Shown here piece by piece: positions 5,895 to 64,000 of a stretch of 64,000 nucleotides of DNA. The notes beneath the pieces are model-generated. The model saw nothing but the letters and a program-made list of their open reading frames with translations. It ran no database searches and was not told where the DNA came from. The position numbers were made by a program, and so were the translations under genes. The DNA comes from Lamellibrachia columna (lineage: Eukaryota; Annelida; Polychaeta; Sabellida; Siboglinidae), in the NCBI GenBank assembly GCA_963662155.1, contig OY759261.1:6133661-6197660 (forward strand), read 5' to 3'. Each line of letters begins with the position of its first letter. Position 1 is the stretch's first letter.

Positions 5895-6595
<701 letters not shown>

Positions 6596-8017
6596 TCACG
6601 TATCACACTTGTAGGGTTTCTCACCAGTATGTGTCCTGTTGTGTCTACTTAAGGAACTACTGCTTGCGAACTGAGTTCCACACGTATCACACTTGTAAGG
6701 TTTCTCACCAGTATGTGTCCTGTTGTGTCTACTTATGGAACTACTGCTTGCGAACCGAGTTCCACACGTATCACACTTGTAGGGTTTCTCACCAGTATGT
6801 GTCCTGTTGTGTCTACTTAAGGCACTATTGCTTGCGAACTGAGCTCCACACGTACCACACTTGCAGGGTTTCTCACCGGTATGGATCCTGTTGTGCCTAC
6901 TTAAGGCACTGCTGCTAGCGAACTGAGTTCCACACGTATCACACTTGTAAGGTTTCTCACCAGTATGTGTCCTGTTGTGTCTACTCAAGGCACTACTGCT
7001 AGCGAACTGAGTTCCACACGTATCACACTTGTAAGGTTTCTCACCAGTATGGGTCCTGCTGTGTCTACTAAAGGAACTACTGCTAGCGAACTGAACTCCA
7101 CACGTACCGCACTTGTAAGGTTTCTCACCCGTATGAGTGCGTATATGCCTACTTAAGCCAGCTCTAACAGCAAACCCGTTCCCACATATTTCACATTTGT
7201 AAAGCCTCTCCCCAGTGTGAATGCGCATGTGACTTTTTAAATTACCCTTTTGGATAAAACAGGCACCACATGTTTCACATTTGTATGGTTTCTCCCCAGT
7301 ATGGGTGAACCTGTGGGACTTTAACTGGGTGGGGTGTGTAAAACATTTACCACACGTTTCACATGTGTAGGGGTTCACCCCAGAATGAGTGTACTTATGC
7401 TTTTTTAAATTAGCACTATTGGTAAAGGATGCGTCACATGTGTCACATTTGTAGGGTTTCTCCCCCGTGTGCAGAACGACGTGATCGTTTAAACGACCCT
7501 TCCGCGTGAACTGTGCGCCACACGTATCGCACGTGTAGGCGCTGCATAGTTTCTCTCCAGTGTGAGTGCGCATGTGTCTCTTCAACCTTCCAGCATCGTT
7601 AAACGGTAACTCACACGTCTCACACTTGTAGCGTTTCTCACCAGTGTGAATGCGCACATGTCTCCTTAAGCAGCCACTGTTAACAAACTTTGCCCCACAA
7701 GTTTCACACACGAAGGGTTTCTCCCCTGTATGAGTGCGCATGTGACCCTTCAGGGTTCCAGTCAGGGCAAACTGCAGTCCACATATGTCACATCTGAAAG
7801 GTTTCTCACCAGTGTGTGTGCGGATATGTCGAGTCAAGCAACCACTGCGGACAAACTGAAGTCCGCATGTGTCACATTTGTAAGGTTTCTCCCCAGTGTG
7901 AATTCGCACGTGCGTTTTCAATGCGCTCTTAGATGCACACTTCGCGCCACATGTGTCACAGTTATGTAACGTTGTCTCACTGTGACAGTTTGCGGGACTC
8001 TCTGAATGACCACTCAT
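6596..8017 (-). CDS. C2H2 zinc-finger protein, 16 fingers, intronless
   Basis: A 473-residue frame from ATG at 8015-8017 (MSGHSESPANCHSETT) with 16 complete CX2CX12HX3H fingers joined by [12 protein letters not shown] linkers, as in nuclear sequence-specific DNA-binding proteins. Finger 1 has Cys in place of the usual Phe, and finger 7 is followed by HSGVNPYTC instead of HTGEKPY. Fingers 1-10 are diverse; fingers 11-16 are near-identical 84-bp copies ([21 protein letters not shown] type), so the 3' half amplified recently. The frame stops (TGA at 6596-6598) in the 17th finger, right after KCDT, by loss of a zinc-binding Cys codon. No KRAB, BTB or other effector domain is visible. DNA target and role are unknown. 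Confidence 0.85.
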   Translation of the reverse strand: MSGHSESPANCHSETTLHNCDTCGAKCASKSALKTHVRIHTGEKPYKCDTCGLQFVRSGCLTRHIRTHTGEKPFRCDICGLQFALTGTLKGHMRTHTGEKPFVCETCGAKFVNSGCLRRHVRIHTGEKRYKCETCELPFNDAGRLKRHMRTHTGEKLCSAYTCDTCGAQFTRKGRLNDHVVLHTGEKPYKCDTCDASFTNSANLKKHKYTHSGVNPYTCETCGKCFTHPTQLKSHRFTHTGEKPYKCETCGACFIQKGNLKSHMRIHTGERLYKCEICGNGFAVRAGLSRHIRTHTGEKPYKCGTCGVQFASSSSFSRHSRTHTGEKPYKCDTCGTQFASSSALSRHNRTHTGEKPYKCDTCGTQFASSSALSRHNRIHTGEKPCKCGTCGAQFASNSALSRHNRTHTGEKPYKCDTCGTRFASSSSISRHNRTHTGEKPYKCDTCGTQFASSSSLSRHNRTHTGEKPYKCDT

Positions 8018-8050
8018 TGTTAACGTCTCTTACGTTAAACGAGTTGTTGT

Positions 8051-16869: not shown

Positions 16870-17945
16870 CACGCCGTTATGATGACGATGCTTCTTCTGC
16901 TGTCTGTGTTCTCAAGGTTTGTATTTCGCCTGCGGGATCATTAGCGAATCGAACTCTTCGTCTCACAGGTGACGTCTCTTGGATGTCTCTGCGATTGCGC
17001 CTCAGGATATGTCCATTTTGTCCTTCAACCATATGTGAACGCGGTTCGTAACATCTTGCATTCACAATCGCTTGGTTCCATCGTCCTGAAGTATGATCTT
17101 GTATCCTGATTGGTTGTTCAATCATGAGTGGTGGTAAGTCGTGGGCATGTCTGTCGTGGTATGACTTCTGAAGGTCCTGGCGTTCCTGTAGCCTACTCTG
17201 TATTTCGTCACGACTATTCAATGGATTGCGGATCTTTACGGGTAAGTTTGCGTTCAACTTCCGTGCATACAACAACTCACTCGGTGAAGGTAACGAGTGG
17301 TCGATGGGAGTCGTTCGCAGACATAGCATAGCCATGTCAAGATCCATCTGACTTTCCCTGGCCTTAGTCAGAGTGTTCTTCACCGTCTGTATGCATCTAT
17401 CTATAAATCCATTTGATTGCGGATAATGTGGAGAGCTTGTTATATGGTCAAATCCCCATGTTTCTGCGAAGCTGCGGTAATTCACGCAGTTGAAGTGTCG
17501 ACCATTATCACTGATGATCTTCTCTGGGACACCTTGTTCCGAAAGTAGCCCTTTGGTTACCGCTACAACTGCATGGCTGGTACAGGGCTTTGGCATTAAA
17601 CGGGTACTTCGAATAATAGTCCGTTATGATCAGGTAATCATTGTCGTTGAAGTGAAAGAGATCTATGCCCAGTATTTGCCATGCCCTCGTTGGTACCTCT
17701 TGAGGCATCAGAGTTTCCTTTGCGTTGGATTTTCGGAGTTCTTGGCACGTCGGGCAATGTTTCACCATTTCTTCCAAGTCTTTGTTGATGCCGTCCCAAT
17801 AGATGCAAGACTTTGCTCGCAGTTTGCACTTTTCGATGCCTTGGTGACCAGCATGCAACCGTTCTAACACTTCTGACTGCACGATATGGGGGTATGACAA
17901 CTCGCTCGCCCTTCATGATAAGTCCATCTTCTACGGACAGTTAAG
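16870..17945 (-). pseudogene. Ty3/gypsy integrase fragment, frameshifted
   Basis: H2C2 zinc-binding region (HAGHQGIEKC to HCPTC, about 17840-17745), first catalytic Asp in GIDLFHFNDNDY, second in IISDNGRHF, then PQSNGFIDRCIQTVKN where the position of the catalytic Glu reads Asp. The C-terminal domain continues to a stop at 16877. The frame shifts near 17595, just after DYYSKYPF. The element is truncated at about 17945 (after VEDGLIMKGERVVIPP) and leads into the polypurine tract and LTR at 16575-16395. Best guess is a Mag/SURL-like lineage. Confidence 0.78.
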
Positions 17946-20906: not shown

Positions 20907-23900
20907 CTAGCTGCCGTATTCCTCGGGCAACACGTATGAGATGTCGTCCCAGGGATGGCGATACAGACCTTGCTTCAATCTCTTCTGGTCAAGGTAGTGT
21001 CCTGAAATGCAGTCGCACCAACCTCAATAAATATTGACTGAATAATTAATTAAATAAATATATCATTATAAACAGGGTGACTCATATGATAGCGACCAAG
21101 TGTGGTCTTAGTAGGAGTGTCCCTGACCCATAATTATTTTTTATCCTATTTTAAATATCCCTACTTTATACTATATACGAAAAAACGTGTAATTTTGTAT
21201 TGTATGAAACTGACATGATACTGTAAGCACAGCTGAATGTATGTTTGCATATGTAATGTTTGCAATTGATGTTATTTTTTTGTTATGGGTCTAAATAAAG
21301 CACTACTAAACCTCAGTGTCAAGAATGACCGCACAAGTTGCTGTACTTTCCACTATAATAGACTTTACTGGATCAAACTTCTGGTCAAATATGCTTTTCT
21401 GGATCAGTGCATTTATTTTATTTCAAATATATGTATGCTCTACTTTAAAATGTCAAATACACAATATTCTTTACTTTTAATATTTTATGTTTAATAAAAT
21501 ATTATTGGTGCTTAATACTGTTTATGCTTTTTGAATTTTAGGTGTACAAAAGAGTATACTACAGTATATAGAAATTATTGCATTAAATGGTGAAGAAGTG
21601 GTTTACATTAGGACCTAGTAGGTAGGTGTGCATTTACCAATATTAAAGATCCTAACATGTGCATGTTCAAGCTGGTCAAATACGCCAATTAAAAATGTCC
21701 TGTAATCAGTGTGTATTTGACCAAATATGACCAACAAATATCATTACAAATACAGGTTTCTGGAAAAAGTCAAATATGCCAAATCAGCTTATTTAAATAC
21801 AAATTAAAGTTAAGTATTTGACCCCAACTATGGAGTCCGATATTAATCTCTGTGGCAACAGATTTCCACTATTTTTACAAAAAGCTACAAATTCAGTTCT
21901 CCATCGTGAACTGTGACTGTAATTTTTTAGATGTCGTTAATTTATGCATAATACCAATACCAACTCTAAAACATCTCCAGGAAGCCACCCCTAAATCCAT
22001 CTTAATAATAAGTTTATCTTCAAAGAGCAGTTTTGTATTTAAAACCCATGTTTATCCATCTGAAGATTTTCCACAACTTAATCACAATTTTGCAGTGTTT
22101 AATGATAATTAGGATGCCTAGAACCTGGATAATTTACCCTTTGGTTAAACATATAACAATACACATGTCCTATGAACAAACAAACTTCCAGGGCCAAAAA
22201 CACGATGAATGAACTATACAACTGACTACTATGCAACATCAAAGTCTGACAAAATCAGCACTAAATTTCTTCCAGCAAAATATTTTTAAACCCAATTTCC
22301 TTCAGCAAAAAAAATGTTTTACATTGTACACTAAGACCTTTTATAACAAATAAAAAACTGTCTGCACTCACCAATGAATCCAATACTTCTGCCTAGCACA
22401 AACAAGCCATTGAGAGCTCCCATCTCTATGTACTCCTGGGCCTCCTCTCTACAACATAAACAAGCCATTGAGAGCTCCCATCTCTACGTACTCCTGGGCC
22501 TCCTCTCTACAACACAAACAAGCCATTGAGAGCTCCCATCTCTACGTAATCATGGGCCTCCTCTCTACAACACAAACAAGCCATTGAGAGCTCCCATCTC
22601 TACGTAATCATGGGCCTCCTCTCTACAACACAAACAAGCCATTGACAGCTCCCATCTCTACGTAATCATGGGCCTCCTCTCTACAACACAAACAAGCCAT
22701 TGAGGGCTCCCATCTCTACGTACCCATGGGCCTCCTTTCTACAACACAAACAAGCCATTGCCAGCTCCCATCTCTACATACCCATGGGCCTCCTCTCTAC
22801 AACACAAACAAGCCATTGAGAGCTCCCATCTCTACGTAATCATGGGCCTCCTCTCTACAACACAAACAAGCCATTGAGAGCTCCCATCTCTACGTACTCC
22901 AGGGCCTCCTCTCTACAACACAAACAAGCCATTGAGAGCTCACATCTCTACGTAATCATGGGCCTCCTCTCTACAACACAAACAAGCCATTGAGAGCTCC
23001 CATCTCTACGTAATCATGGGCCTCCTCTCTACAACACAAACAAGCCATTGACAGCTCCCATCTCTACGTAATCATGGGCCTCCTCTCTACAACACAAACA
23101 AGCCATTGAGAGCTCCCATCTCTACGTACCCATGGGCCTCCTTTCTACAACACAAACAAGCCATTGCCAGCTCCCATCTCTACATACCCATGGGCCTCCT
23201 CTCTACAACACAAACAAGCCATTGAGAGCTCCCATCTCTACATACCCATGGGCCTCCTCTCTACAACACAAACAAGCCATTGACAGCTCCCATCTCTACA
23301 TACCCATGGGCCTCCTCTCTACAACACAAACAAGCCATTGACAGCTCCCATCTCTATATACCCATGGGCCTCCTCTCTACAACACAAACAAGCCATTGAC
23401 AGCTCCCATCTCTACATACCCATGGGCCTCCTCTCTACAACACAAACAAGCCATTGAGAGCTCCCATCTCTACATACCCATGGGCCTCCTCTCTACAACA
23501 CAAACAAGCCATTGACAGCTCCCATCTCTACATACCCATGGGCCTCCTCTCTACAACACAAACAAGCCATTGACAGCTCCCATCTCTACATACCCATGGG
23601 CCTCCTCTCTACAACACAAACAAGCCATTGACAGCTCCCATCTCTACATACCCATGGGCCTCCTCTCTACAACACAAACAAGCCATTGACGGCTCCCATC
23701 TCTACATACCCATGGGGCTCCTCTTTATAGGATAACATATGCTTCACACTCAGGACTGTGTCCAATCACAATAGTCAGTTACACTGACAAATCATCACAA
23801 AAGTTTGATTAGAGTTGCAGTACTTCAATAAAGGTTCATCACAATGCTTCATAAAAGACCAACTGCAATGGTTCATAGGTTCAGTACAACTACATTTTTT

Positions 23901-26900
23901 ATATAAAAGAAATGTATTTGACCTAACAAGCATATGGTTCACTTGAGAAAAATTGTGTCGTGGAGAAATGTCAAGGAATCTCTTCTTACCATCGTACACC
24001 AAAAAAAATTCCTCTAGACTATAGTCATTTGGTAACTAGTGTAAAACAACTGAAAAGTGATGCCAACTGTTTAACACCAGATGGCGACAATTTTCAGTTG
24101 TTCCACACTAGTCAAATTACAGTAATCCTGCTGATTGAAAAAGGGGTGTACTATTAATAGGTCGAATATGGCACGTTCCATTACTGCTCATTTTTAAACA
24201 GGGTTTTAGGTGAATTTATGCATTATTGTTGCCAGGGGTTCAATTGTAATAGCCAAGTACACAGCTTCACTAAAGCTCAATTATAATGTTTTCAGTTACA
24301 ATTAACTGTAATTAATTACAAATTAAATAACAATTAAACCCAACTGAGATTACAATCATAAGCATTTTAATCTTCCCATTATTTGTACACACGTAAATTT
24401 CCTTTGGAACAACTTTCATTATTCAATCGGAAATAAGTCCTCATATATTATGTACTTTGTACACGAACAAGAAAGTGTAAATGTGACTGATACTGTTCTG
24501 GTTCTGAGTAAACATTGCAGGAGCATTTAGTTTTCCAGAATTGTTGAACCTTTGAGAAACAAAACTTGAGTGTTCCATTTGAACCTGTTTTGAACAGATA
24601 CCTGAGTTCAGATGTTTAACTTACCTTGTAAAACAGTCACTATTTCAGATGTTTAACTTACCTTGTAAGACAGTCACTATTTCAGACGTGTAACTTACCT
24701 TGTAAAACAGTCACTATTTCTCAGCAGATCGACCATTGCTACACCGATGAAGCCATCCACATTCAAGATCAGGTTCGGTTTCTGTTGACAAAAGCATCAA
24801 TATTATTACGATCATCAAATGGCTGAGTGTTTTGTAGACAACACAAATACTATTCCAACATCAGTGTAACAAATGTGATTAATTCTGAATAACAGTTAAC
24901 AATAAAACCAACAAGTTTTTTTCATATCTAACCATCAAACTATTAAATTGAGAACTTTCATTGTTTCATAATAACTAGTGAGATAGTGAGATATTTATGG
25001 CAAATTCTGACCTTTCAGGTTCAACTATAAAGATTGTAAAATGGACTTTTTTGGTCAACTTTGATACATGGTAAGTTAAACTGGGAGTTTACATTCTACA
25101 GGAAGCAATGGCAAAGCTGGACATCTTTGGACATTTTCAGCTGTCTGAGAACACGAAAGGTACAGACACTGAGCATATTTCTTTCTGTCACACCGCTGCA
25201 CTGGATTTGGGTTTTGGTGCCACCATATGCAGCATTTTGCTATGTGCAACATTTATTACGAGACACTGGTATACCTTAACAATAATGTATTTTGCACGAA
25301 TATTTGTTTATTTACTGCTTAACATAATACTATAATTTTAATCGATATTGTGTACAAGACTTTCTATTTGCATTGAGATTTTACTGGGTCATACATCAAC
25401 TTTCACTTTTACTTTGAAAGACGTTTACAAAAAGCTTTACCTTTGACGTGGTGATCTTCTCGACTTCGTAGGCATAGTCAAGTAGGGGGGTCGCGGGAAA
25501 GTTACTCTTCGCATACTCGTTTAGTATGACCACCCTCATATCGGGGTTGTTGATCTGTCGGGGTGAAACACAATATTTAACCTCTAATATACTAACACCT
25601 GAATCAATTAATCAATCATTTCAAAACAGCATGAATACCATAAGAAAATACAAAACCATTTCCAACACGTGGAATGTTGTTAAAATAAAACAATAGTGTG
25701 CTGGGAAGGGGACAAATTGGATAATGGTGCCTATTTATACAATACTCAGGGCTAACTCCAGCCACTCATCACTGTCTCATGTGGAAGTCAAATATGATTT
25801 CTTCCAATCATCTACATTTATGCTTTACCATAGCTGCCAAATTGTTAAGGGACCCATGTGGTTTAGATGGGCTAGAGTACTTTACTGCGTACAATGGTGA
25901 CTAAGCTTCACAATGCATAAAGAATGTACTGTCTATTTTGGCATGATAACAAATCAGCCAATGATAATTGCAATACATTGGCTTTAAGATGAAACAACGA
26001 CTCACCGACTTGATCCTATGGCCGATACCAAGAATGAGTTTGCCCTGTTTGCGCATGTTGTTGACAAACTCCATAGGAATGGTTCCGCTGTCATACGCCT
26101 CGCTGAACATCTTGGCCGCCCCGTCAAGGGCTCCACCAAACCTGTCACCCTGTAGGAAACAATTCACACAACTGACCAGTTTAGACAAGACCAAAATAAC
26201 TTGTGGCGCCTCTGGTGCATAATATAACACTAATATAAAGACGAAATCGTGTGAGATTATCGATGGAAGTGTTCCGATGGTAGCGTTGTGATTTCTGTTT
26301 AGTATCAGTAGGTGTTATTGTAGGTACGATGTATTCTTTGCTGAAACAGTAATTCTTAACTATTTGCGTTGTTGTCATTGTCATGGATGCATCATTGTTC
26401 CAACTCTAATTTACAAAATTACATGTTGTACTTCCGGCAACATTAGATCCCACATTGCATTGTGTTTATACATACCCACCATGCAGCGATCAAAGATATG
26501 ATATTCCAGGTATAACTGACTATTAGTTGCCACTAAATGGCACTGTGAACTGAGGTATTTCTTAACTTTGGATCTACAGAAATTCCTCTGCCAGCAACAC
26601 ACAGGGTATACAGTTTACATTTGCTAAACACTTTGTTGTTACTCTACCACCTCATGACAAAACAATGTTTTTAAAATCATATAATAAGGTTTATTCAGTT
26701 GTAACAACTCAATTAATTTCAATTTTTTTTCATTATATTATTATTAAATTACAACTCAGGTGATTCGTAGAAACTCCGAAAGGCATATAGCGGAATCGCC
26801 TGTACACATAAAATAAATAGCATAGTGTTACACACAGTTGTTCATAATATGAACAACTGTATATGAATCATATACACATATACAGTACATAGATACATAT

Positions 26901-29900
26901 GCACATATACTGTTACATAGAATGCACTAAACTGAAATATGTCATTGAACCCACCCATCAGTATACATGATCACAGATGTATTACACATAACATTAAAAC
27001 ATTTTAAACTGTGACATTAATATGTATATTATGTAACACGTTATTTATCCACTTAAATATGTTATTCTATCAAAGCTTTCATAGAATAACACCATCACAT
27101 ATTATATGCTGCCTCATTTGTAAATGCCAGTCTCCTGTGGCCATTTTAATCATTCATATCATATTGTATCGATATTAAAACAAATCATAAAATATATTTA
27201 TAAAATAATTAATACTACAACTCATAACATAAATGAATTATAAATGGCCAGAAGTAATCTGACCGAGTGACTTACGATTGTGAGGAGGCCCGAGGCGAGA
27301 CTGGACACGAGGTCCTTGCCAGCACGGGCACACACGATGGTGTTGTGTGAGCCGGACACGGCTGGACCGTGGTCAGCGGTCACCATCATACACATCTCTA
27401 TGAACTTGGCAGCGTATGGCGGCAGTCTGTGGATGACAACCAAGGGACATGTTAAAACTTCCTCCTCAGTTAATTTAGTCCATCACAAATCAGTCTGTGG
27501 TTGACAACCAAGGGACATGTTAAAACTTCCTCCTCAGTTAATTTAATCCCTCACAAATCAGTCTGTGGTTGACAACCAAGGGACATGTTAAAACTTCCTC
27601 CTCAGTTCATTTAGTCCATCACAAATCAGTCTGTGGTTGACAACCAAGGGACATGTTAAAACTTCCTCCTCAGTTAATTTAATCCCTCACAAATCAGTCT
27701 GTGGTTGACAACCAAGGGACATGTTAAAACTTCCTCCTCAGTTCATTTAGTCCCTCACAAATCAGTCTGTGGTTGACAACCAAGGGACATGTTAAAACTT
27801 CCTCCTCAGTTCATTTAGTCCCTCACAAATCAGTCTGTGGATGACAACCAAGGGACATGTTAAAACTTCCTCCTCAGTTCATTTAGTCCCTCACAAATCA
27901 GGTTTGTTGATGTTCAGATATGAACTGTGCGAATAGTTTAAGTGATACATGTAGAACACTACAAATAGTTTAAGTGATACATGTAGAACACTACAAATAG
28001 TTTAAGTGATACATGTAGAACACTACAAATAGTTTAAGTGATACATGTAGAACACTACAAATGGTTTAATAGCAGTTTGTTAATATCATCGAAAGAATTT
28101 ACTTTGTTTATTAGATCGGATAACTTACAAAAGTGAGAACAGCCTTATGTCATAGTATATACAGCCTTATGTCATAGTATATACAGCCTTATGTCATAGT
28201 ATATACAGCCTTATGTCATAGCATATACAGCCCTATGTCATAGTATATACAGCTGGACCACTTTTATTCCGTTTTTAGACAATTTTGACCTAATCCAGTC
28301 CAAAATAAATTACTAGTTTTTCTGATGATTTCATCGAAACTAAATAACACATTTGTGCAGAGAGAAGCTAGCATGTCGTACTGGATATCAGATAGGTTTG
28401 GTGTTTGGTTCTAAAACGAGACAAGTGAAAACAATTTAATAGAGGAGGTAGCTAAAAAGCTGCCCTGGCAATTCTACTTTTTTTTCATTTCGCAAAACAA
28501 CTCAAACGATCTGCAAAATGCTAACTTGAAGGCATTCTAACTTATGAAATGCACCTTTTGGTCAATTCCAACAACAGGGAACACATATCTGGAGGTCCAT
28601 TTGACCTATGACCCAGAAGACAACAATGGTAACATGCCAAAATACCTGCGCTGGAACCAGAGCAGACCGAGGACCCCTCCAATGCCAAGGTCCTCCTTGA
28701 AGATCTCCGTGATTGGCATGCCGGCATAGAGCAACTCCTGGCCACGCTCATCACAGATACTTGTCATGAAGGACGCCGGCTTACGGATCAGGCCTAACTC
28801 CTTCAAAGGAATACGTTAATCTTACTATAATCCAGCAAGTGTACATATGTATGTTTGTATATTATGCTATTTCTCCTAGACGCTTTGCATCTCCACCACC
28901 AAACAATTTCAGGGGTTCATTTACGACCCACTGGTCGGGTCATCAGTTTAATTTTTCTTTAATTCCCCCCACTTTCTATGAACAATCAAATTACTCTTTG
29001 AAGCTATTGTGTACAACTGTCAACAACACGATGCCAACAACTACGTACAATCTCGAGAGTTGGACTCCAAGAAGCCATCAAGATATTGACTGGCAGCTCC
29101 AAGTAATCAATGGATATTTCTGTGAAATTGTGTAAATATTGTTATTTATGACAGTCAGTTATGAACTACCAAGTTATCCCGTCCAGAGCATGGGCATTTT
29201 TGCTAGTTAATAATAATAATGACATCTTAAGCTAGGCATACACTGCAAAACTTTTGCTGTGAGTCACATGTTTGTGTGACAAGCAGTGATTTTTTATACC
29301 GTAGTTGTGTGACTGGTTCAGCACACATACAACTCTATGCGTCTGATCAGTGTACTGCACAACAAAGGTTGTCGCAACTCGTGTACTGCCACGATCGTAG
29401 CGTTATTTTCTGGAACTGCAACCATGTGTGCCCCTAGTGTTGTGGTTTGGCATGAACCCGACACGCAAAAATAAGCAGCGTTTTCCACCCATTGCCACGA
29501 CTGAGTTTTGTTGAGTTGCGAATAAGTGTACACTGCATGAGTGATCAGTTTTAAGTGAAATAAACACACGACCCGTAACAAAAGTCCTAGCCTAGTATTA
29601 TATAGTATTATATAGCATGGCATTCATGACACTTAGCTCCATTACTAGAGTGAGGCAGCAGCTAATTCAGTGCACATCCTACACACAGTGCACATCCTAC
29701 ACACAGTGCACATCCTACACACAGTGCATGAGATGAGATGAGTGCTGTGTGTCTACACATTTTTACGTAAATGCAATCAATTATAATCAATTACATTTAA
29801 AATTGTAAACATAACTGAAAATGCCAATAGCTTAATCAAGATCGTCACCCAGATTCATCGTACTAACCCGTGCCCAGTTGAAGTCCATCGGTACAGTGGG

Positions 29901-29961: not shown

Positions 29962-32900
29962 CTAATGAACACAAACGTAAGATATCCCATCAACCAATTA
30001 ATGGCACTAAACCTGTTAGGCACTGGCACTAAACCTGTTAGGCACTGGCACTAAACCTGTTAGGCACTGACACTAAACCTGTTAGGCACTGGCACAAAAC
30101 CTGTTAGGCACTGGCACTAAACCTGTTAGGCACTGACACTAAACCTGTTAGGCACTGGCACAAAACCTGTTAGGCACTGGCACAAACCTGTTAGGCACTG
30201 GCACTAAACCTGTTAGGCACTGGCACAAACCTGTTAGGCACTGGCACTAAGAAACAACATAATCATAAAAAGTACAGAAGTTACACACACAATCAGCTGT
30301 CATGACAATGTTCACAACGTGCCCGAGGTGAATGAACTGGTAGATTTCAAAAATGGTTACAAAAATATTTTATATTTTTAAATTATAATTTCCAAAAGTG
30401 GTTGTTTTACTTAGGTAAATGTGTTGGTAGTCTAGTCAGTTTTATTATCTGCTGTCATACAACAGACATTATCTATAACACATACGACACCTGGTGGCTA
30501 AAAACGAAACCACGTTTGTGGGAAGTCATCTAGTGCTAATGTGCATGTGTCGCGAATATTGTCTACAAGCAGCACTATCTGATGTTCAAAAGATGCCCTA
30601 GATGAAGGAACACGGTGAATAAACTCACTTAATGAGTTCTCCAAGTTCATCAAATGTCAGTGGTACGTGGGCACCTGCATCCCTCAGAGCCTGGTTCTTG
30701 GCGATGGCTGTTTCTCTCTCAGCATTGGCACACGATCCTGCGTGTCCAAACTGCACCTGCACACATCATAAACAAGTATTTGCAATTAATCAAGACATAG
30801 AGTTAAACAAATCCTCTGAACAGAACACTGCTGCTCTCCTCTTTATCCTTCAAGTCCAGGGTGAGGCTCACATCTATACTGGTCGGTAATTGTTTTCCTT
30901 CTTTAAACAAGTGTTAGACCAGTAGAAAAAAATTTCAATTTTGGGATTGTCCAACTCTTTCATTTGGATGCGCCTTTGAGGTCAGGTTTCCGAGGAATAT
31001 GCGCGGTTAGGGCAGGAGCCTGTAGTATAATATAGGTGTTTGAGATTAGGCAGCAGTCTTTGTAGTATTACTGTAGGTGTTTGAGATTAGGCAGGAGTCT
31101 TTGTAGTATTACTATAGGTATTTGAGATTAGGCAGCAATCTTTGCATTATTACTATAGGTGTTTGAGATTAGGCAGCAGTCTTTGTAGTATTAATGTAGG
31201 TGTTTGAGATTACGCAGGAGTCTTTGTATTATTACTGAACGTGTTTGAGATTAGGCAGGAGTCTTTGCATTATTACTGTAGGTGTTTGAGATTACGCAGG
31301 AGTTTTTGTATTATTACTGTAAGTATTTGAGATTAGCCAGCAGTCTTTGTGTTATTACTATAGCTGTTTGAGATTAGACAGGAGTCTTTGTAGTATTATT
31401 GTAGGTGTTTGAGATTAGGCAGGAGTCTGTAGTATAATATAGGTGTTTGAAATTAGGCAGGAGTCTGTAGTATAATATAGGTGTTTGAGATTAGGCAGGA
31501 GTCTGTAGTATAATATAGGTATTTGAGATTAGGCAGGAGTCTGTAGTATAGTATAGGTGCTTAAGATTTGGCAGGAGTCTGTAGTATAATATAGGTGTTT
31601 GCAATTTGGCAGGAGTCTGTAGTATAATATAGGTGTTTGAGATTAGGCAGGAGTCTGTAGTATAATATAGGTGTTTGAGATTTGGCAGGAGTCTGTAGTA
31701 TAATATAGGTGTTTGAGATTTGGCAGGAGTCTGTAGTATAATATAGGTGTTTGAGGTTAGGCAGGAGTCTGTAGTATAATATAGGTGTTTGAGGTTAGGC
31801 AGGAGTCTGTAGTATAATATAGGTGTTTGAGATTAGGCAGGAGTCTGTAGTATAATATAGGTGTTTGAGATTAGGCAGGAGTCTGTAGTATAATATAGGT
31901 GTTTGAGATTTGGCAGGAGTCTGTAGTATAATATAGGTGTTTGAGATTTGGCAGGAGTCTGTAGTATAATATAGGTGTTTGCAATTTGGCAGGAGTCTGT
32001 AGTATAATATAGGTGTTTGAGATTAGGCAGGAGTCTGTAGTATAATATAGGTGTTTGAGATTAGGCAAGAGTCTTTGTATTATTACTATAGGTATTTTAG
32101 ATTAATCAAGACATACAGTAAAACAAAAGATATACAGTAAAACAAAAGCTCTCAACAGAACATCTGAAGTGTCTGAACGTTTTTCAGCACGTACAAAATA
32201 TTACGACTAATATTTCCACAATATTGACAAGGAAAAATCCAAACAATAAAATATGATCACTGGAAAACATGCAGTTGTGACGATTCATTACGTCTATTAT
32301 ACATTTTATAATTTAACAATAACACATGTTAAACCTTTGGAGATATCAGTTAAACCAACTGAATTTCTTTCCTGCACCAGTTAATAGAATTGTGGATGTT
32401 ATTTATTTAGCAAATTATTCTTTGCAATTGAGGCCATTTGCAGTTGTTGAATATTTCAATGAAATAAGGAATTCCACTCATGCATATGAGAGAGCAATAC
32501 CTCAGACGTGAACATATGAGAGAGCAATACCTCAGACGTGAACATATGAGAGAGCAATACCTCAGACGTGAACATATGAGAGAGCAATACCTCAGACGTG
32601 AACATATGAGAGAGCAATACCTCAGACTTGAACATATGAGAGAGCAATACCTCAGACTTGAACATATGAGAGAGCAATACCTCAGACGTGAACATATGAG
32701 AGAGCAATACCTCAGACGTGAACATATGAGAAAGCAATACCTCCGACGTGAACATATGAGAGAGCATACCTCCGACGTGAACATATGAGAGAGCAATACC
32801 TCAGACTTGAACATATGAGAGAGCAATACCTCAGACGTGAACATATGAGAGAGCAATACCTCAGACGTGAACATATGAGAAAGCAATACCTCAGACGTGA

Positions 32901-35900
32901 ACATATGAGAGAGCAATACCTCAGACATGAACATATGAGAAAGCAATACCTCAGACGTGAACATATGAGAGAGCAATACCTCCGACGTGAACATATGAGA
33001 GAGCAATACCTCAGACGTGAACATATGAGAGAGCAATACCTCAGACGTGAACATATGAGAGAGCAATACCTCAGACGTGAACATATGAGAGCAATACCTC
33101 AGACTTGAACATATGAGAGAGCAATACCTCAGACGTGAACATATGAAAGAGCAATACCTCAGACGTGAACATATGAGAGAGCAATACCTCAGACGTGAAC
33201 ATATGAGAGAGCAATACCTCAGACGTGAACATATGAGAGAGCAATACCTCAGACGTGAACATATGAGAAAGCAATACCTCAGACATGAACATATGAGAGA
33301 GCAATACCTCAGACGTGAACATATGAGAGAGCAATACCTCAGACGTGAACATATGAGAGAGCAATACCTCAGACGTGAACATATGAGAGAGCAATACAAC
33401 AGACGTGAACATATGAGAGAGCAATACCTCAGACGTGAACATATGAGAGAGCAATACAACAGACGTGAACATATGAGAGAGCAATACCTCAGACGTGAAC
33501 ATATGAGAGAGCAATACCTCAGACGTGAACATATGAGAGAGCAATACCTCAGACGTGAAAATATGAGAGAGCAATACCTCAGACGTGAAAATATGAGAGA
33601 GCAATACCTCAGACGTGCACATATGAGAGAGCAATACCTCAGACTTGAACATATGAGAGAGCAATACCTCAGACTTGAACATATGAGAAAGCAATACCTC
33701 AGACGTGAACATATGAGAGAGCAATACCTCAGACATGAACATATGAGAGAGCAATACCTCAGACGTGAACATATGAGAGAGCAGTACCTCAGACGTGAAC
33801 ATACGAGAGAGCAATACAACAGACGTGAACATATGAGAAAGCAATACCTCAGACGTGAACATATGAGAGAGCAATACCTCAGACGTGAACATATGAGAGA
33901 GCAATACCTCAGACGTGAACATATGAGAGAGCAATACCTCAGACGTGAACATATGAGAGAGCAATACCTCAGACGTGAACATATGAGAGAGCAATACCTC
34001 AGACGTGAACATGCGAGCACAAGTGCCGATACACCAAGCCACAATCGGCTTTGATAGACGGCCATCTTTGATTGCTTCGATGATGATGTATTCTTCCGTG
34101 CCCCCGACCTCTCCCAGAACGACGATCAGCTTCACGTCTGGGTCGTCATGGTAACGCTGGATATGGTCCATGAAGGTCGTACCTGGGTATCTGAATGTCA
34201 CACGAATAACATTGACTTTCGAGGTTTTATAATGTGTGAACAGGAAATGCTATAAAATATATATCTATGTGCAAAATGGGAAGAATAAATTAAACAGAAC
34301 AACTGCACAAATGATATATGGAGTTAAAGAAAATAAAATGTCAAAGAACATCAGCTGAAATGACATTACCTGTCTCCTCCGATTGCAATGCCCTCATAGA
34401 CACCATTTGTGTTGAGTGCGATGATGTTATTCAACTCATTTGACATCCCGCCTGACCTTGACACATATGCCACGCTGAAACAGAGGTCACATGCCTGCAA
34501 CAAGTTTGTCCTGTCTGTCATCAAACTGAACATTTGGTGGCAAGGCTAAATTTGTGACACAGCACTTATGAAAAACATTTAAATGCTAACTGAATTGTAA
34601 AACTAACCTTAATAATCAACTTTCAATTTTCAATGTATTATGCCGCATAACGTAATTCAATAACAAAAATAATGTACTGTTTTATCACAGCATGTGTCAA
34701 TTAAAGTATAAAATTGCAATATCAAACTAAACGTCAACATGGTAGAGGGGTATAACACTAGGCAGTGGGAGTCAAAATAACAAATGTTTCTGACTCAGAA
34801 TTACAATACAAAAGATTGAACAAGACTGCCACCCACAGTAACATGCCCCAGACGGCCAGGACAAGGTTACCACCCACAGTAACACATCCCAGACGGCCAG
34901 GACAAGGTTACCACCCACAGTAACATGCCCCAGATGGCCAGGACACGGTTACCATCCACAGTAACACATCCCAGACGGCCAGGACAAGGTTACCACCCAC
35001 AGTAACACACCCCAGACGGCCAGGACAAGGTTACCACCCACAGTAACACGCCCCAGACGGCCAGGACAAGGTTACCACCCACAGTAACACGCCCCAGACG
35101 GCCAGGACAAGGTTACCACCCACAGTAACATGCCCCAGATGGCCAGGACAAGGTTACCACCCACAGTAACACACCCCAGATGGCCAGGACAAGGGGGCCA
35201 CTGGCTTATCAAAAGTCCAATGATTATTTTCTGGGAATGGGGTACTATGACGAGTCTTGACCTTTGACCTGCTTTACCTGCCTGGTCGGTACAGCCTGGA
35301 TGACAGAATGTTATCAAGCATGCCTCCCGTGTTCCCGATCTTGAAGCAACCAGGTTTGATGCCTCCCACCTGGGAAGAGAACAGATTCATTTATTGGGAG
35401 AAAGAAATGGAAATATGATGGCAGTAACTATCCTTGTTACCGATGTGTTATCAAAGATACAGAAACTGATCACTTCTATCATAACATCATGTTGTGTAGT
35501 ATGACCAAGTTTTCTCTTTCATTTGAATGTTCACATTGCATGCAGAGGATGAAGTAATTTTATGGGGGTTAATGAAACGCCGATAAAAGTCACCCCGTGA
35601 ATGCCTGTCCTCGATAAAATTTGTCAACAGGTATTGGAAAATGTCAACCGCTGTTTTTTAACGTACTGAACGGCAAATCGATATTCATAAACATAATTTG
35701 ATAATGATCAAATTATATTATTTTACAAGATTATAAATCATTTAGTTTATACTACACGATTTTATGATGAAACAATCAGACCTTTCATATGACAATCAAA
35801 TTATTTCTGTGTCAGATTGTCATATACATGGTGCAAGTGAATTCTAGGGAATGCATCTTGAGAATTAATTTAAATGAAGTTTCCGAAAATTACGGTTAAT

Positions 35901-38900: not shown

Positions 38901-41900
38901 TTATTTTTTCGAAATTCATCCCTACGGACAATCGAAATACCCTTTGTAATTATTACGTACAATTGTTCACATGGTATTGTAACCCAGGAAGTGTACATAA
39001 TTTTATATTTGTTTGTACGTTACGCTATTCCTCCTAGATGCTTTGCATCTCAGGCACCAAACTGACAGGGGTTCATCTCAGGCACCAAACTGTCAGGGGT
39101 TCATCTCAGGCACCACACTGTCAGGGGTTCATCTCAGGCACCAAACTGTCAGGGGTTCATCTCAGGCACCAAACTGTCAGGGGTTCATCTACGTTAGTTT
39201 TATTTTTTCGAAATTCATCCCTACGGACAATCGAAATACCCTTTGTAATTATTACGTACAATTGTTCACAATACCATGTGAACAATTACGTACAATTGTT
39301 CATGTCATGCACCTTTTCTACGATTGTCCAAAGTTATATAATACACGGGAAGGCTTCACTATACGTTACTATAACTGTCAGTATTATGTCACAATCTCGA
39401 AATACCAAAGCATAGATGGATATTTCTGTGTTGGGTATCCTGAAATTTGGTGAATATTGTTATCATGACAGCCACTTACAAACTACCAAGTTATCCCATC
39501 CAAAGGGTGGGTATTTTTCCTAGTATTTTACAATCTAGAAAAACAGCCTGGGTAGGAAAGAACACCCATACCTGGGATTAGGATCTCCTTGTGACCCCAG
39601 TAGAACTTCTGCTTGTGATCTCCTCTGAAAGAGAAGAATTATGCTTAGCGTTATATCAGAGACAGCAATAAACATTCGTAAGTAGGCTACCTAGAACTAT
39701 CTGTTTGAAAATGAGTTGTTTGACATGCATGTTTTGCCAAGTACATTTCCACCATTTTTTTTGGTAAAGCTGGATGATAAAATTTTAATAATATACATAA
39801 AAAGTTCATAGGACAAACTGTGTTAAAAACAGTAACATTAATTTAAAGATAATATAATTAAATATGTAATTAAAAAAGTCAAGTAACACCGAACTCATTA
39901 AAGTTATGTTTACGCTGTCACTAACTTCGTAATGACCTAGAACCAGCGACTCACACAAATGGGTATATCATGGCTGCGACAGACGGAGTCTGGCGGGAGC
40001 ACACGTAGTCAAAGTCGAGCATTCCCTGGACGGCGCGGGACTGCAGCCCCCAGATGATGGTGCGTGTGGTAGAGCTGAACAGGGACTTCTGTAAGAAAGC
40101 ACTTCATTTCCATAACCAGGTTCACCGTGACACACCTGTCTTCTAAAAACAAGTAAAAGTACTTCTTATATAGCAAGGTATCCAGTCCTTGGGACTGCTA
40201 GAAGCGCTTTACACTATACCCTCTGGCAGACCTGCTCATTCCAACACCACCTTAGACTTCTCTAGGAAGCATTCAGCCACATTATAATTACTGAATGAAG
40301 ACCATTCGTTCACATGTCCACCTCTGTCTGTAGCCAGGTACTCATTTATATGGCTGAGTGAACTGTGGCAATGTGGGTTGAATGATATTGCCAAAGCTTC
40401 GAAATGGCAGTAATGATTTGAACCTGGGTTCTCTCGATTGAGAGCCTGACATTCTAACCACTCCGCCACTGTACCTCAAGGGGTGATCTCAAAACCTGGG
40501 TTCTCGATTGAGAACCTGACATTCTAACCGCTACGCCACTGCCTCAAGGGGTGATCTCAAAACCTGGGTTCTCTCGATTGAGAGCCTGACATTCTAACCA
40601 CTACGCCACTGTGCCTCAAGGGGTGATCTCAAAACCTGGGTTCTCTCGATTGAGAGCCTGACATTCTAACCGCTACGCCACTGTGCCTCAAGGGGTGATC
40701 TCAAAACATGGGTTCTCTCGATTGAGAGCCTGACATTCTAACCGCTACGCCACTGTGCCTCAAGGGGTGATCTCAAAACATGGGTTCTCTCGATTTGAGA
40801 GCCTGACATACTAACCGCTACGCCACTGTGCCTCAAGGGGTGATCTCAAAACATGGGTTCTCTCGATTGAGAACCTGACATTCTAACCGCTACGCCACTG
40901 TGCCTCAAGGGGTGATCTCAAAACATGGGTTCTCTCGATTGAGAACCTGACATTCTAACCGCTACGCCACTGTCCCTCAAGGGGTGATCTCAAAACATGG
41001 ATGTATAATGGCAGTAATGATTTGAACCCGGGTTCTCTCGATTGAGAGCCTGACATTCTAACCGCTACGCCACTGTGCCTCAAGGGGTGATCTCAAAACA
41101 TGGATGTATAATGCTATACAAGATTAGTTTCATGTTGGAGTGGGGGTTAGCAGCTGCTTTGGTTAGTAACACAAATGTATTCTTCCACACAGTTAACAAA
41201 GGTGCTGACGTTAAGTACACGCAGACAATTAGTGTTTTATTGACTGAACATTAATGGTATGTGATGGTTAAGCATGAAGAACAAGGACATTTTCATGATA
41301 TCTACAGGTCAACATAATTCAAAGTGTCAAGTAGCAGGTGTCTGAAGCTAAATAATACAGGTTTTGTGTATTGTTGTACATCAAGGTTTTGAGATCACCC
41401 CACAGTGTTATATAAACTTCATCAGCTTACAATGTTACACACTAGGGGTGTATCAATACCTCGAACTATCGGTGCATCGCAATAGCTGATGTGACGATGC
41501 AGTACTATGGATAGTTAACTGAACTGTCAATAGTTACCATTAACAGTACACTGAACTATCAATAGTATTGATAGTTGGCAAAACAATTCAGAAGGGCTAC
41601 ACTGTCACTGTAATAATAGAAATAAACGTTTTTCAACTATGTTTGATAATTTTACTTACTTACCTAACATCAACAATGGTTGATTAGAGAAGCATCAGTC
41701 GCAGATTCAGCATTTTTAATCAACTACCTCTATGGCCACCCATGAAGTAGGGGCCTGTTTTCCTGGCTATTCATTATTCTGTGATACAATCACAATAGTT
41801 ATGACACTATCACAATAGTATTGTAATAGCTACACAGCTATCGCGATACCATCAGAAAAGTAAAACTACTCCCGATAGTCACCACGCAGTGCTACTTGCG

Positions 41901-60536: not shown

Positions 60537-61866
60537 CAATGGGTAAGGCAACCAATGGGTAAGGCAACCAATGGGTAAGACAACCAATGGGTAAGGCAAC
60601 CAATGGGTAAGGCAACCAATGGGTAAGACAACCAATGGGTAAGACAACCAATGGGTAAGACAACCAATGGGTAAGACAACCAATGGGTAAGGCAACCAAT
60701 GGGTAAGACAACCAATGGGTAAGGCAACCAATGGGTAAGGCAACCAATGGGTAAGGCAACCAATGGGTAAGGCAACCAATGGGTAAGGCAACCAATGGGT
60801 AAGGCAACCAATGGGTAAGGCAACCAATGGGTAAGACAACCAATGGGTAAGACAACCAATGGGTAAGACAACCAATGGGTAAGACAACCAACGGGTAAGG
60901 CAACCAACGGGTAAGGCAACCAACGGGTAAGACAACCAACGGGTAAGACAACCAACGGGTAAGGCAACCAACGGGTAAGGCAACCAACGGGTAAGACAAC
61001 CAACGGGTAAGACAACCAACGGGTAAGACAACCAACGGGTAAGACAACCAACGGGTAAGACAACCAACGGGTAAGGCAACCAACGGGTAAGGCAACCAAC
61101 GGGTAAGGCAACCAACGGGTAAGACAACCAACGGGTAAGGCAACCAACGGGTAAGGCAACCAACGGGTAAGACAACCAACGGGTAAGACAACCAACGGGT
61201 AAGACAACCAACGGGTAAGGCAACCAATGGGTAAGACAACCAATGGGTAAGACAACCAATGGGTAAGGCAACCAATGGGTAAGACAACCAACGGGTAAGA
61301 CAACCAACGGGTAAGACAACCAACGGGTAAGGCAACCAACGGGTAAGGCAACCAACGGGTAAGGCAACCAACGGGTAAGACAACCAACGGGTAAGGCAAC
61401 CAACGGGTAAGACAACCAACGGGTAAGGCAACCAACGGGTAAGACAACCAACGGGTAAGACAACCAACGGGTAAGACAACCAACGGGTAAGACAACCAAC
61501 GGGTAAGACAACCAATGGGTAAGGCAACCAATGGGTAAGACAACCAATGGGTAAGACAACCAATGGGTAAGGCAACCAATGGGTAAGACAACCAATGGGT
61601 AAGACAACCAATGGGTAAGACAACCAATGGGTAAGGCAACCAATGGGTAAGGCAACCAATGGGTAAGACAACCAATGGGTAAGACAACCAATGGGTAAGA
61701 CAACCAATGGGTAAGACAACCAATGGGTAAGACAACCAATGGGTAAGACAACCAATGGGTAAGACAACCAATGGGTAAGACAACCAATGGGTAAGACAAC
61801 CAATGGGTAAGGCAACCAATGGGTAAGACAACCAATGGGTAAGACAACCAATGGGTAAGACAACCA
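60537..61866 (+). repeat. 16-bp minisatellite, about 83 copies (array 1)
   Basis: Units GCAACCAATGGGTAAG / ACAACCAACGGGTAAG. The AAT and AAC versions are in blocks: AAT to about 60890, AAC to about 61220, a four-unit AAT patch, AAC to about 61510, AAT to the end. Long minus frames (439-477 codons) are artefacts of the 16-bp period. Confidence 0.95.
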
Positions 61867-62067
61867 AGGCTATGAAGTCATGTACAGGTTACACAAGTAA
61901 CTGTATTGATTCTTTGTATAAGTTGGTCAGAAGAAGGAGTTCAAATGAAATATTCTGCATTTTACCAAAGAGCCTAAGATAAGAGGTGACACCGCCCCAG
62001 TTTATTGTAATCCTATGGTCTGCCTGGTGCTCAGCTGTACTAAGCCAGGACATCTGACACCTCTGCC

Positions 62068-63110
62068 ATGAAAGATGGTGGAGAGATTTGCCCTGCAATA
62101 GGATGTTACAATACACATTACAACAGCAATGTGTCCATGTTCCGATTCCTGAGGATGCCCAAAGGTAACATTTATTAAATATGCCATCACAGTAATAAAA
62201 CATCTGCCAACAACTATGTGAACTACACACCCTATTATAACCCATCAGACTGTATTTACAGCAAATCCCTTGGCTTATCCCTGGTGTGAATTAGTGTAAT
62301 TAATGCAGATGACAGCACCATTGAAGCAACTAATATCAATGTTAGTAACATGATGTCTTGGGTCCGTGCACACACTCTCTGTCTGTTACAGTGTTAGCCA
62401 GTTAACACTCTGAATACTTCCATCTAATGAAAAGTGTTGATTATAATTAAACATTATTGTTTCGTTCCTCCTTATGTAATGTGTTTCCCAAACATTTATG
62501 ACTTATGTTGCCATAAAATGAAGCACAATCTCAAATTATAATGTATCATCTGCCACTCAGTCAGGATAGGCCTCTGGAATTATAATGTATCATCTGCCAC
62601 TCAGTCAGGATAGGCCTCTGGAATTATAATGTATCATCTGCCACTCAGTCAGGATAGGCCTCTGGAATTATAATGTATCATCTGCCACTCAAGTCAGGAT
62701 AGGCCTCTGGAATTATAATGTATCATCTGCCACTCAGTCAGGATAGGCCTCTGGAATTATAATGTATCATCTGCCACTCAGTCAGGATAGGCCTCTGGAA
62801 TTATAATGTATCATCTGCCACTCAGTCAGGATAGGCCTCTGGAATTATAATGTATCATCTGCCACTCAGTCAGGATAGGCCTCTGGAATTATTTGCTATA
62901 GCAGAAATTCTGTACGTATATTCTAGTACTTTGTATATAAAAATACACGTTGTGACAATTTGTAGATGGCAAAAGTGGGTGCAGAATGCAAGGCGTAGAG
63001 ATCTTCGTTCAATCACACCAGATCATCTCTACAAAAGTTATCACCTATGTGAGAATTATTTTGAAGAATCACAATTCAAAAACAAAGATAACAAGAAAGC
63101 TACCAATGGG
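62068..63110 (+). CDS. THAP-domain gene fragment, two exons
   Basis: Exon 1 at 62068-62164 (ATG, KDGGEICPAIGCYNTHYN, SMFRFLRMPK, donor GTAACA) has the CX4C-type start of a THAP C2CH zinc finger. Exon 2, from the acceptor AG at 62964-62965, contains WQKWVQNARRRDL, LYKSYHLCENYFEESQF, i.e. the Trp and the C-x2-H-like end of the domain (here C..N, with His replaced in HLCENYF). THAP domains bind DNA and are common in P-element-derived host proteins. The homology frame of exon 2 is off by one from the exon 1 phase, so an exon is missing or the gene is broken. Exon 2 runs into array 2 at AATGG|GTAAGG. Confidence 0.55.
62525..62890. repeat. 44-bp array in the THAP intron
   Basis: Eight copies of GGAATTATAATGTATCATCT + GCCACTCAGTCAGGATAGGCCTCT between the two THAP exons. 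Confidence 0.92.
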
Positions 63111-64000
63111 TAAGGCAACCAATGGGTAAGGCAACCAATGGGTAAGGCAACCAATGGGTAAGGCAACCAATGGGTAAGGCAACCAATGGGTAAGACAACC
63201 AATGGGTAAGACAACCAATGGGTAAGACAACCAATGGGTAAGACAACCAATGGGTAAGGCAACCAACGGGTAAGGCAACCAACGGGTAAGACAACCAACG
63301 GGTAAGGCAACCAACGGGTAAGGCAACCAACGGGTAAGGCAACCAACGGGTAAGACAACCAACGGGTAAGACAACCAACGGGTAAGACAACCAACGGGTA
63401 AGACAACCAACGGGTAAGGCAACCAACGGGTAAGGCAACCAACGGGTAAGGCAACCAACGGGTAAGACAACCAACGGGTAAGGCAACCAACGGGTAAGAC
63501 AACCAACTGGGAAGACAACCAACGGGTAAGACAACCAACGGGTAAGACAACCAACGGGTAAGGCAACCAATGGGTAAGACAACCAATGGGTAAGACAACC
63601 AATGGGTAAGGCAACCAACGGGTAAGACAACCAACGGGTAAGACAACCAACGGGTAAGACAACCAACGGGTAAGGCAACCAACGGGTAAGGCAACCAACG
63701 GGTAAGGCAACCAACGGGTAAGGCAACCAACGGGTAAGACAACCAACGGGTAAGGCAACCAACGGGTAAGACAACCAACGGGTAAGGCAACCAACGGGTA
63801 AGACAACCAACGGGTAAGACAACCAACGGGTAAGACAACCAACGGGTAAGACAACCAATGGGTAAGGCAACCAATGGGTAAGACAACCAATGGGTAAGAC
63901 AACCAATGGGTAAGGCAACCAATGGGTAAGACAACCAATGGGTAAGACAACCAATGGGTAAGACAACCAATGGGTAAGGCAACCAATGGGTAAGGCAACC
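63101..64000 (+). repeat. 16-bp minisatellite, at least 56 copies (array 2), beginning at the THAP exon 2 donor
   Basis: Same unit and same block order as array 1 (AAT, AAC, short AAT patch at about 63570-63610, AAC, AAT), running off the window edge. On the plus strand each unit includes TGGGTAAG or CGGGTAAG, a donor-like sequence, and the first unit overlaps the end of THAP exon 2. Confidence 0.95.

Follow-up and report, generated by a model that had tools for sequence, protein, structure and literature searches.

When a 5′ splice site has been copied dozens of times in tandem, which copy does the spliceosome choose, and does the protein change as a result? This question is raised by a 64,000-nucleotide stretch of DNA from Lamellibrachia columna (assembly GCA_963662155.1, contig OY759261.1, positions 6,133,661 to 6,197,660; hereafter the window), in which the junction between exon 21 and intron 21 of a gene for ATP-citrate lyase (ACLY), a key enzyme of fat synthesis, has become a minisatellite carrying one authentic and 50 decoy donor sites. 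Minisatellites spanning exon/intron boundaries, termed mirages, have been described in amphioxus, where they reportedly leave regular splicing undisturbed. From its sequence, the ACLY array is probably a minisatellite of this type that arose, for the most part neutrally, as minisatellites were born in abundance, and the exon-proximal donor is probably the one used.

The window carries most of the ACLY gene, on the minus strand. Spliced alignment to a human ACLY sequence yielded usable exons numbered 3-30 (55437 to 20922); exons 1-2 of this alignment are spurious, exons 13-14 fall in a variable linker and are uncertain, and two N-terminal exons lie about 8.6-11.9 kb past the window end. Joined, exons 3-30 encode a protein without an internal stop, and residues 4-425 of its final 428 give a gap-free alignment with human ACLY structures. 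Exon 21 (34190-33998, minus strand) ends in a phase-0 donor, whose presumed authentic GT lies at 33996..33997 according to the spliced alignment and the reading frame. Exon 22 (30756-30629, minus strand) starts with GTGCAGTTT and, as an earlier reading of this DNA (the original prediction) had stated, begins VQFGH in translation. The catalytic His of this motif (codon 30744-30742) stands four residues past the junction residue E; it aligns to position 760 of human ACLY.

Among the best 120 of 2621 database homologues of this protein, the top one is 80% identical, the best named one, from Capitella teleta, 77% and that of Branchiostoma 74%. In a tree of 35 proteins, comprising the window protein and 34 homologues hand-picked from those 120, the window ACLY falls in a set of 11 sequences with Capitella and Helobdella (support 97/88); Owenia, likewise an annelid, lies outside this set. 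The phylogeny points to an annelid host. An affinity of the host to amphioxus, which the mirage papers had brought to mind, is ruled out by the Branchiostoma identity and by the tree grouping. The array thus lacks the cephalochordate host in which the term mirage was coined, but in our view that host is where mirages were found and not a trait that defines them.

Exon 21 ends in TTCACGTCTGAG / ATGTTCACGTCTGAG, followed on the minus strand by GTATTG, and this junction block of exon end and intron start is repeated head to tail from the exon down to 32483. Tandem Repeats Finder (TRF) delimits a 30-bp array of the unit GTATTGCTCTCTCATATGTTCACGTCTGAG at 32483..34012 on the minus strand (51.1 copies, 96% matches). 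Read unit by unit, the array holds 50 intron-side units and a partial 51st, with 51 GT starts, confirming the earlier claim that the ACLY donor is repeated 51 times. The accompanying claim that the unit is repeated exactly holds for about half of the copies. In the unit-by-unit register, 25 of 50 units are identical to the consensus, and 48 of 50 are 30 bp long; the other two are unit 31 (33070..33097, minus strand, 28 bp) and unit 42 (32741..32769, minus strand, 29 bp). The trinucleotide preceding GT is GAG at 48 of the 51 donors and GTT at donors 7, 19 and 21, and GTATTG is altered internally at donors 8 and 42.

Each unit joins two halves, one taken from the end of the exon and one from the start of the intron. 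Its exonic half is the last 15 nt of exon 21, by which the array overlaps the exon, with the remainder intronic; the unit therefore spans the exon-intron boundary and its copies carry splice signals, which is the anatomy that defines a mirage. In other respects the host gene is intact. MFTSE, the peptide encoded by the exonic half, is conserved in ACLY homologues, which identifies the exon as the source and the array as the copy. A search of the genome (879,693,805 bp in 30 contigs) with up to two mismatches found 48 matches to the unit, 28 of them exact in the register of that search and every one inside the ACLY array, against none for a backwards control. The unit therefore arose from ACLY's own junction.

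We envisage that the boundary between exon 21 and intron 21 underwent a short tandem duplication, which slippage or unequal exchange then expanded until the exon end and its 5′ splice site were present in 50 additional copies. The first, exon-proximal donor would normally be chosen, the copies would leave with the intron, and mature ACLY would be unchanged. Exon definition is the likely reason: only donor 1 has the real exon immediately upstream, while all other donors have array upstream of them. The array would be tolerated; it is probably neutral, and its copy number probably varies.

The rest of the gene bears on this reading. The original prediction made no mention of the arrays at three other ACLY exons. 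Merged TRF arrays number 40 in the window and cover 24.6% of it; 24 lie within the ACLY gene, and three of these straddle splice junctions, at the exon 21 donor, the exon 28 donor and the exon 29 acceptor. The 37-bp array at exon 28 (exon 24781-24699; array 24607..24720, minus strand; TRF 3.1 copies) holds the authentic donor, which is the strongest of 27 scored (-10.6 kcal/mol to U1), and, 37 and 74 nt further on, two decoys with an intact AAG|GTAAGTT, use of either of which would shift the frame. The 58-bp array at exon 29 (exon 22448-22372; array 22397..23724, minus strand; 22.9 copies) places 21 decoy acceptors upstream of the real one, in 21 units that keep TTTGTGTTGTAG. These units are built from the exon's own coding start, and the nearest unit agrees with the first 55 nt of the exon at 51 positions; what immediately precedes the real acceptor is thus coding sequence that has been duplicated. 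In the exon's frame the units read ...NGLFVL*, and use of a decoy acceptor would therefore bring in a stop. Intron 28 thus has arrays at both of its ends. At exon 25 (27426-27276), a 68-bp array of 7 copies (27423..27901, minus strand) places 6 decoy acceptors upstream of the real one. Since use of the decoys at exons 28 and 29 would shift the frame or bring a stop, a working ACLY needs exon-proximal choice at both exons, and the spliceosome must cope with tandem decoys in this transcript.

The number of straddling arrays is compatible with random seeding. With straddling defined as at least 5 bp on each side of a junction, 3 of the 24 gene arrays qualify, compared with a mean of 1.32 under random seeding of single units (P 0.136) and a mean of 7.26, above the observed number, under random placement of whole arrays; the exon 25 array, with an exon overlap of 4 bp, stands outside both counts. 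Copies of the local 24-mer were found for 3 of 55 junctions; among randomly chosen 24-mers, 88 of 300 in introns and 7 of 300 in exons had copies, at positions that are not independent of one another. Preferential birth of arrays at splice junctions is unsupported by either comparison.

The likeliest alternative is that splicing draws stochastically on donors 1 to about 31, so that ACLY gains n x 10 residues immediately ahead of the catalytic His; we consider this unlikely. Reading through the array from exon 21, donors 1-31 are open and in frame, adding 0 to 900 nt in 30-nt steps of 10 residues each without a stop, and apart from a few variants they share a common donor core. To this extent the proposal that about 31 units could be used in frame and without a stop was borne out. 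Donors 32-51 all run into a stop that begins at 33073, within the frame-breaking unit 31. Human UBC is reported as an example of stochastic splicing among tandem AGGT sites (PMC10809524). An in-frame unit is by itself unsurprising: by our own arithmetic, a length divisible by three (1/3) combined with five stop-free intron-derived codons (~0.79) is expected about 1 time in 4.

Several observations speak against such graded isoforms, beginning with the break of frame at unit 31. The array variants show no coding constraint: the 48 full-length units contain 11 base-variant types, 3 synonymous and 8 non-synonymous, close to the 20:68:2 (synonymous:non-synonymous:stop) obtained from all single changes of the unit, although with so few variants the comparison has low power. 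In these small numbers, the variants look like drift. An insertion at TSE|VQFGH is absent from 117 of 118 matched ACLY homologues (120 were fetched, and two had no match to the motif); the sole exception is an unverified sturgeon record that also repeats a longer upstream stretch. We would expect an ACLY with an insert four residues before the phosphorylated His to be inactive. Splicing to the decoys of exons 28 and 29 would destroy the enzyme, and the amphioxus precedents are reported to be spliced regularly. The original prediction left reliable use of the first donor and graded isoforms side by side; the decoys at exons 28 and 29, the array variants, the homologues and the amphioxus precedents together favor the former over the latter.

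Other properties of the locus weigh against reliable use of donor 1. This donor is weak, as had been proposed (-5.8 kcal/mol to U1, 17th of 27; median -6.8), and on its sequence would have no intrinsic edge over its copies. SRSF1 is reported to favor intron-proximal donors, which here would be the last of the array (PMC5585400). Donors 2-4 lengthen the 193-nt exon 21 by 30-90 nt only, and exon length would not forbid their use. Predicted accessibility in a 6-nt window is higher at donor 2 (2.0e-2) than at donor 1 (7.3e-3). With a weak first donor, a permissive exon length and the SRSF1 preference, in-frame insertion at a low level stays conceivable. A minority of ACLY transcripts might then use donors 2 to about 31, producing a ladder of 10-residue inserts four residues before the catalytic His that varies between individuals with repeat number, but we regard this as improbable.

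Predicted RNA folding offers limited help in telling the donors apart. In the 6-nt window, the median accessibility of the array donors (4.5e-4) is below that of all 26 other donors scored, although at least one array donor reaches 0.18; when the window is widened to 9 nt, donor 1 is no different from the array mean, which 4 of the 50 copies exceed. The idea that folding singles out donor 1 is weak, given the greater accessibility of donor 2 and the finding that, among 300 arrays of shuffled units, 25% equal or surpass the real one in folding. Folding may contribute to donor choice, without separating donor 1 from donor 2. The strong predicted folding of the array donors, together with a GT that is intact at 51 of 51 unit starts, could instead be taken to indicate that selection maintains the donor-like run for some role in the pre-mRNA, such as offering U1 a platform to bind or folding on itself. 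We consider this very unlikely: the 48 full-length units show only 11 variant types, so that little weight attaches to two positions being intact, the shuffled arrays speak against it as well, and the region is filled with arrays of many other sequences. Expansion of a short true array during assembly, which reliance on a single assembly and the 25 exact copies among 50 units might suggest, is equally hard to credit for an array in which 11 base-variant types and two indel-bearing units are intermixed, which lies inside one 72.7 Mb contig and which shares its window with many arrays of similar style.

A mirage-type minisatellite at an ACLY donor has precedents that the original prediction did not mention. 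Amphioxus mirages occur in Adh3, the globins BflGb6 and BflGb9, troponin C and PGBD5, with the PGBD5 case added, and troponin C cited, in PMC3902484. The BflGb6 arrays have 6 and 3 units, whereas the ACLY array has 50 extra copies, an in-frame run of 31 donors and an annelid host. The dual-specific splice sites of human UBC and VCX3A resemble it in having head-to-tail units that contain AGGT and are divisible by three in length (PMC10809524). However, the UBC repeats encode protein and splicing removes whole repeats, whereas the ACLY array occupies one end of an intron and gives no indication of serving as coding sequence. In human segmental duplications, internal tandem repeats likewise have units of about 30 bp at exon-intron boundaries, but they average 4 units, belong to recent paralogues and in some cases alter transcripts, in contrast to 51 copies in an essential enzyme gene (PMC2812944).

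The Rogers model of intron gain, by tandem duplication of an AGGT-containing segment, shares with ACLY the position of AG|GT inside the duplicated segment; the difference is that the ACLY array extended the 5′ end of an intron that was already present. By eye, the intron 21 acceptor and the start of exon 22 are unlike the unit beyond its GT, which does not fit an origin of intron 21 of the Rogers type. Our literature searches, some of which named annelids or polychaetes, returned no report of junction-spanning arrays in an annelid among the material they reached, a result that is not proof of absence. Earthworm metallothionein has intronic minisatellites, with no junction-spanning unit in the portion of the report available (PMC12783039). 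What is new here is the annelid host, the high copy number, the presence of several arrays in one gene on both sides of junctions, and the long in-frame run. These features suggest that splice-junction minisatellites are not confined to amphioxus.

Junction arrays are also found elsewhere in the genome. We scanned it for three AAGGTAAGT in a row and read seven of the loci listed, a non-random sample hand-picked for interesting units. In one (L037), GAGATCGACTACCAAG|GTAAGTTT marks the end of an exon encoding an EF-hand (Pfam EF-hand_1, E 1.4e-18), beyond which lie two arrays, one with 14.2 copies of a 31-bp unit and the other with 10.4 copies of a 36-bp unit. Downstream of the exon, thirteen sites agree with its end and donor at 17 or more of 24 positions, with GT in 11 of the 13, compared with a mean of 0.02 in shuffled references. 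The exon and the two arrays derived from its end and donor occupy 1561-2394 of this locus and 1310-2568 of a second one (L049), which is a copy of the first, 18 kb away, with 95-99% identity in the three longest aligned pieces. By eye, the first exon copy of L049 contains an in-frame stop. The 36-mer array has 6.6 units in L049, compared with 10.4 in L037, and L049 has an extra 31-mer block. Because the two copies differ in unit number despite their high identity, junction arrays of this kind can, to judge from these sequences, change length on short time scales. By analogy, variation between individuals in ACLY copy number, for which the ACLY sequence represents one haplotype, is plausible.

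The remaining scanned loci gave less. The triple AAGGTAAGT matches numbered 149+203, compared with 135+120 for the backwards pattern; they overlap within arrays, and a genome-wide excess of donor arrays is therefore uninterpretable. In locus L036, on the reverse strand at about 2260-2440, a candidate junction array follows an open frame that ends EVLTAIKQKKK, with a 44-bp repeat containing AAG|GTAAGTT. Pfam gave no match for this frame, nor for the one beside L038, and by eye L039, L040, L006 and L012, the last partly masked, revealed no clear exon.

The ACLY array belongs to a known but rarely noticed kind of repeat, and is more likely a natural test of how splice points are chosen than a source of new protein versions. 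As a natural experiment on 5′ splice-site choice, it offers 51 donors with near-identical cores in one metabolic gene, accompanied by donor and acceptor arrays at other exons. The stretch before the exon 29 acceptor, now duplicated coding sequence, suggests that an array is able to take over a splice site. A genome this rich in arrays is a good setting in which to watch introns lengthen and splice sites change.

Several other features of the window deserve mention. The long ACLY intron that precedes exon 3 holds two arrays of related 16-bp units (60537-61867 and 63102-64000), with GGTAAGA on the plus strand, in antisense orientation relative to ACLY. A 72-bp array at 40421-41113 contains, on the minus strand, a motif resembling a tRNA A-box (TGGCGTAGTGG); ARAGORN predicted no tRNA in the window, this array included. 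A reading frame at 16877-17623 on the minus strand resembles a retroelement integrase by eye. Also on the minus strand, at 6250-8029, a C2H2 zinc-finger reading frame contains an in-frame 84-bp array of near-identical fingers.

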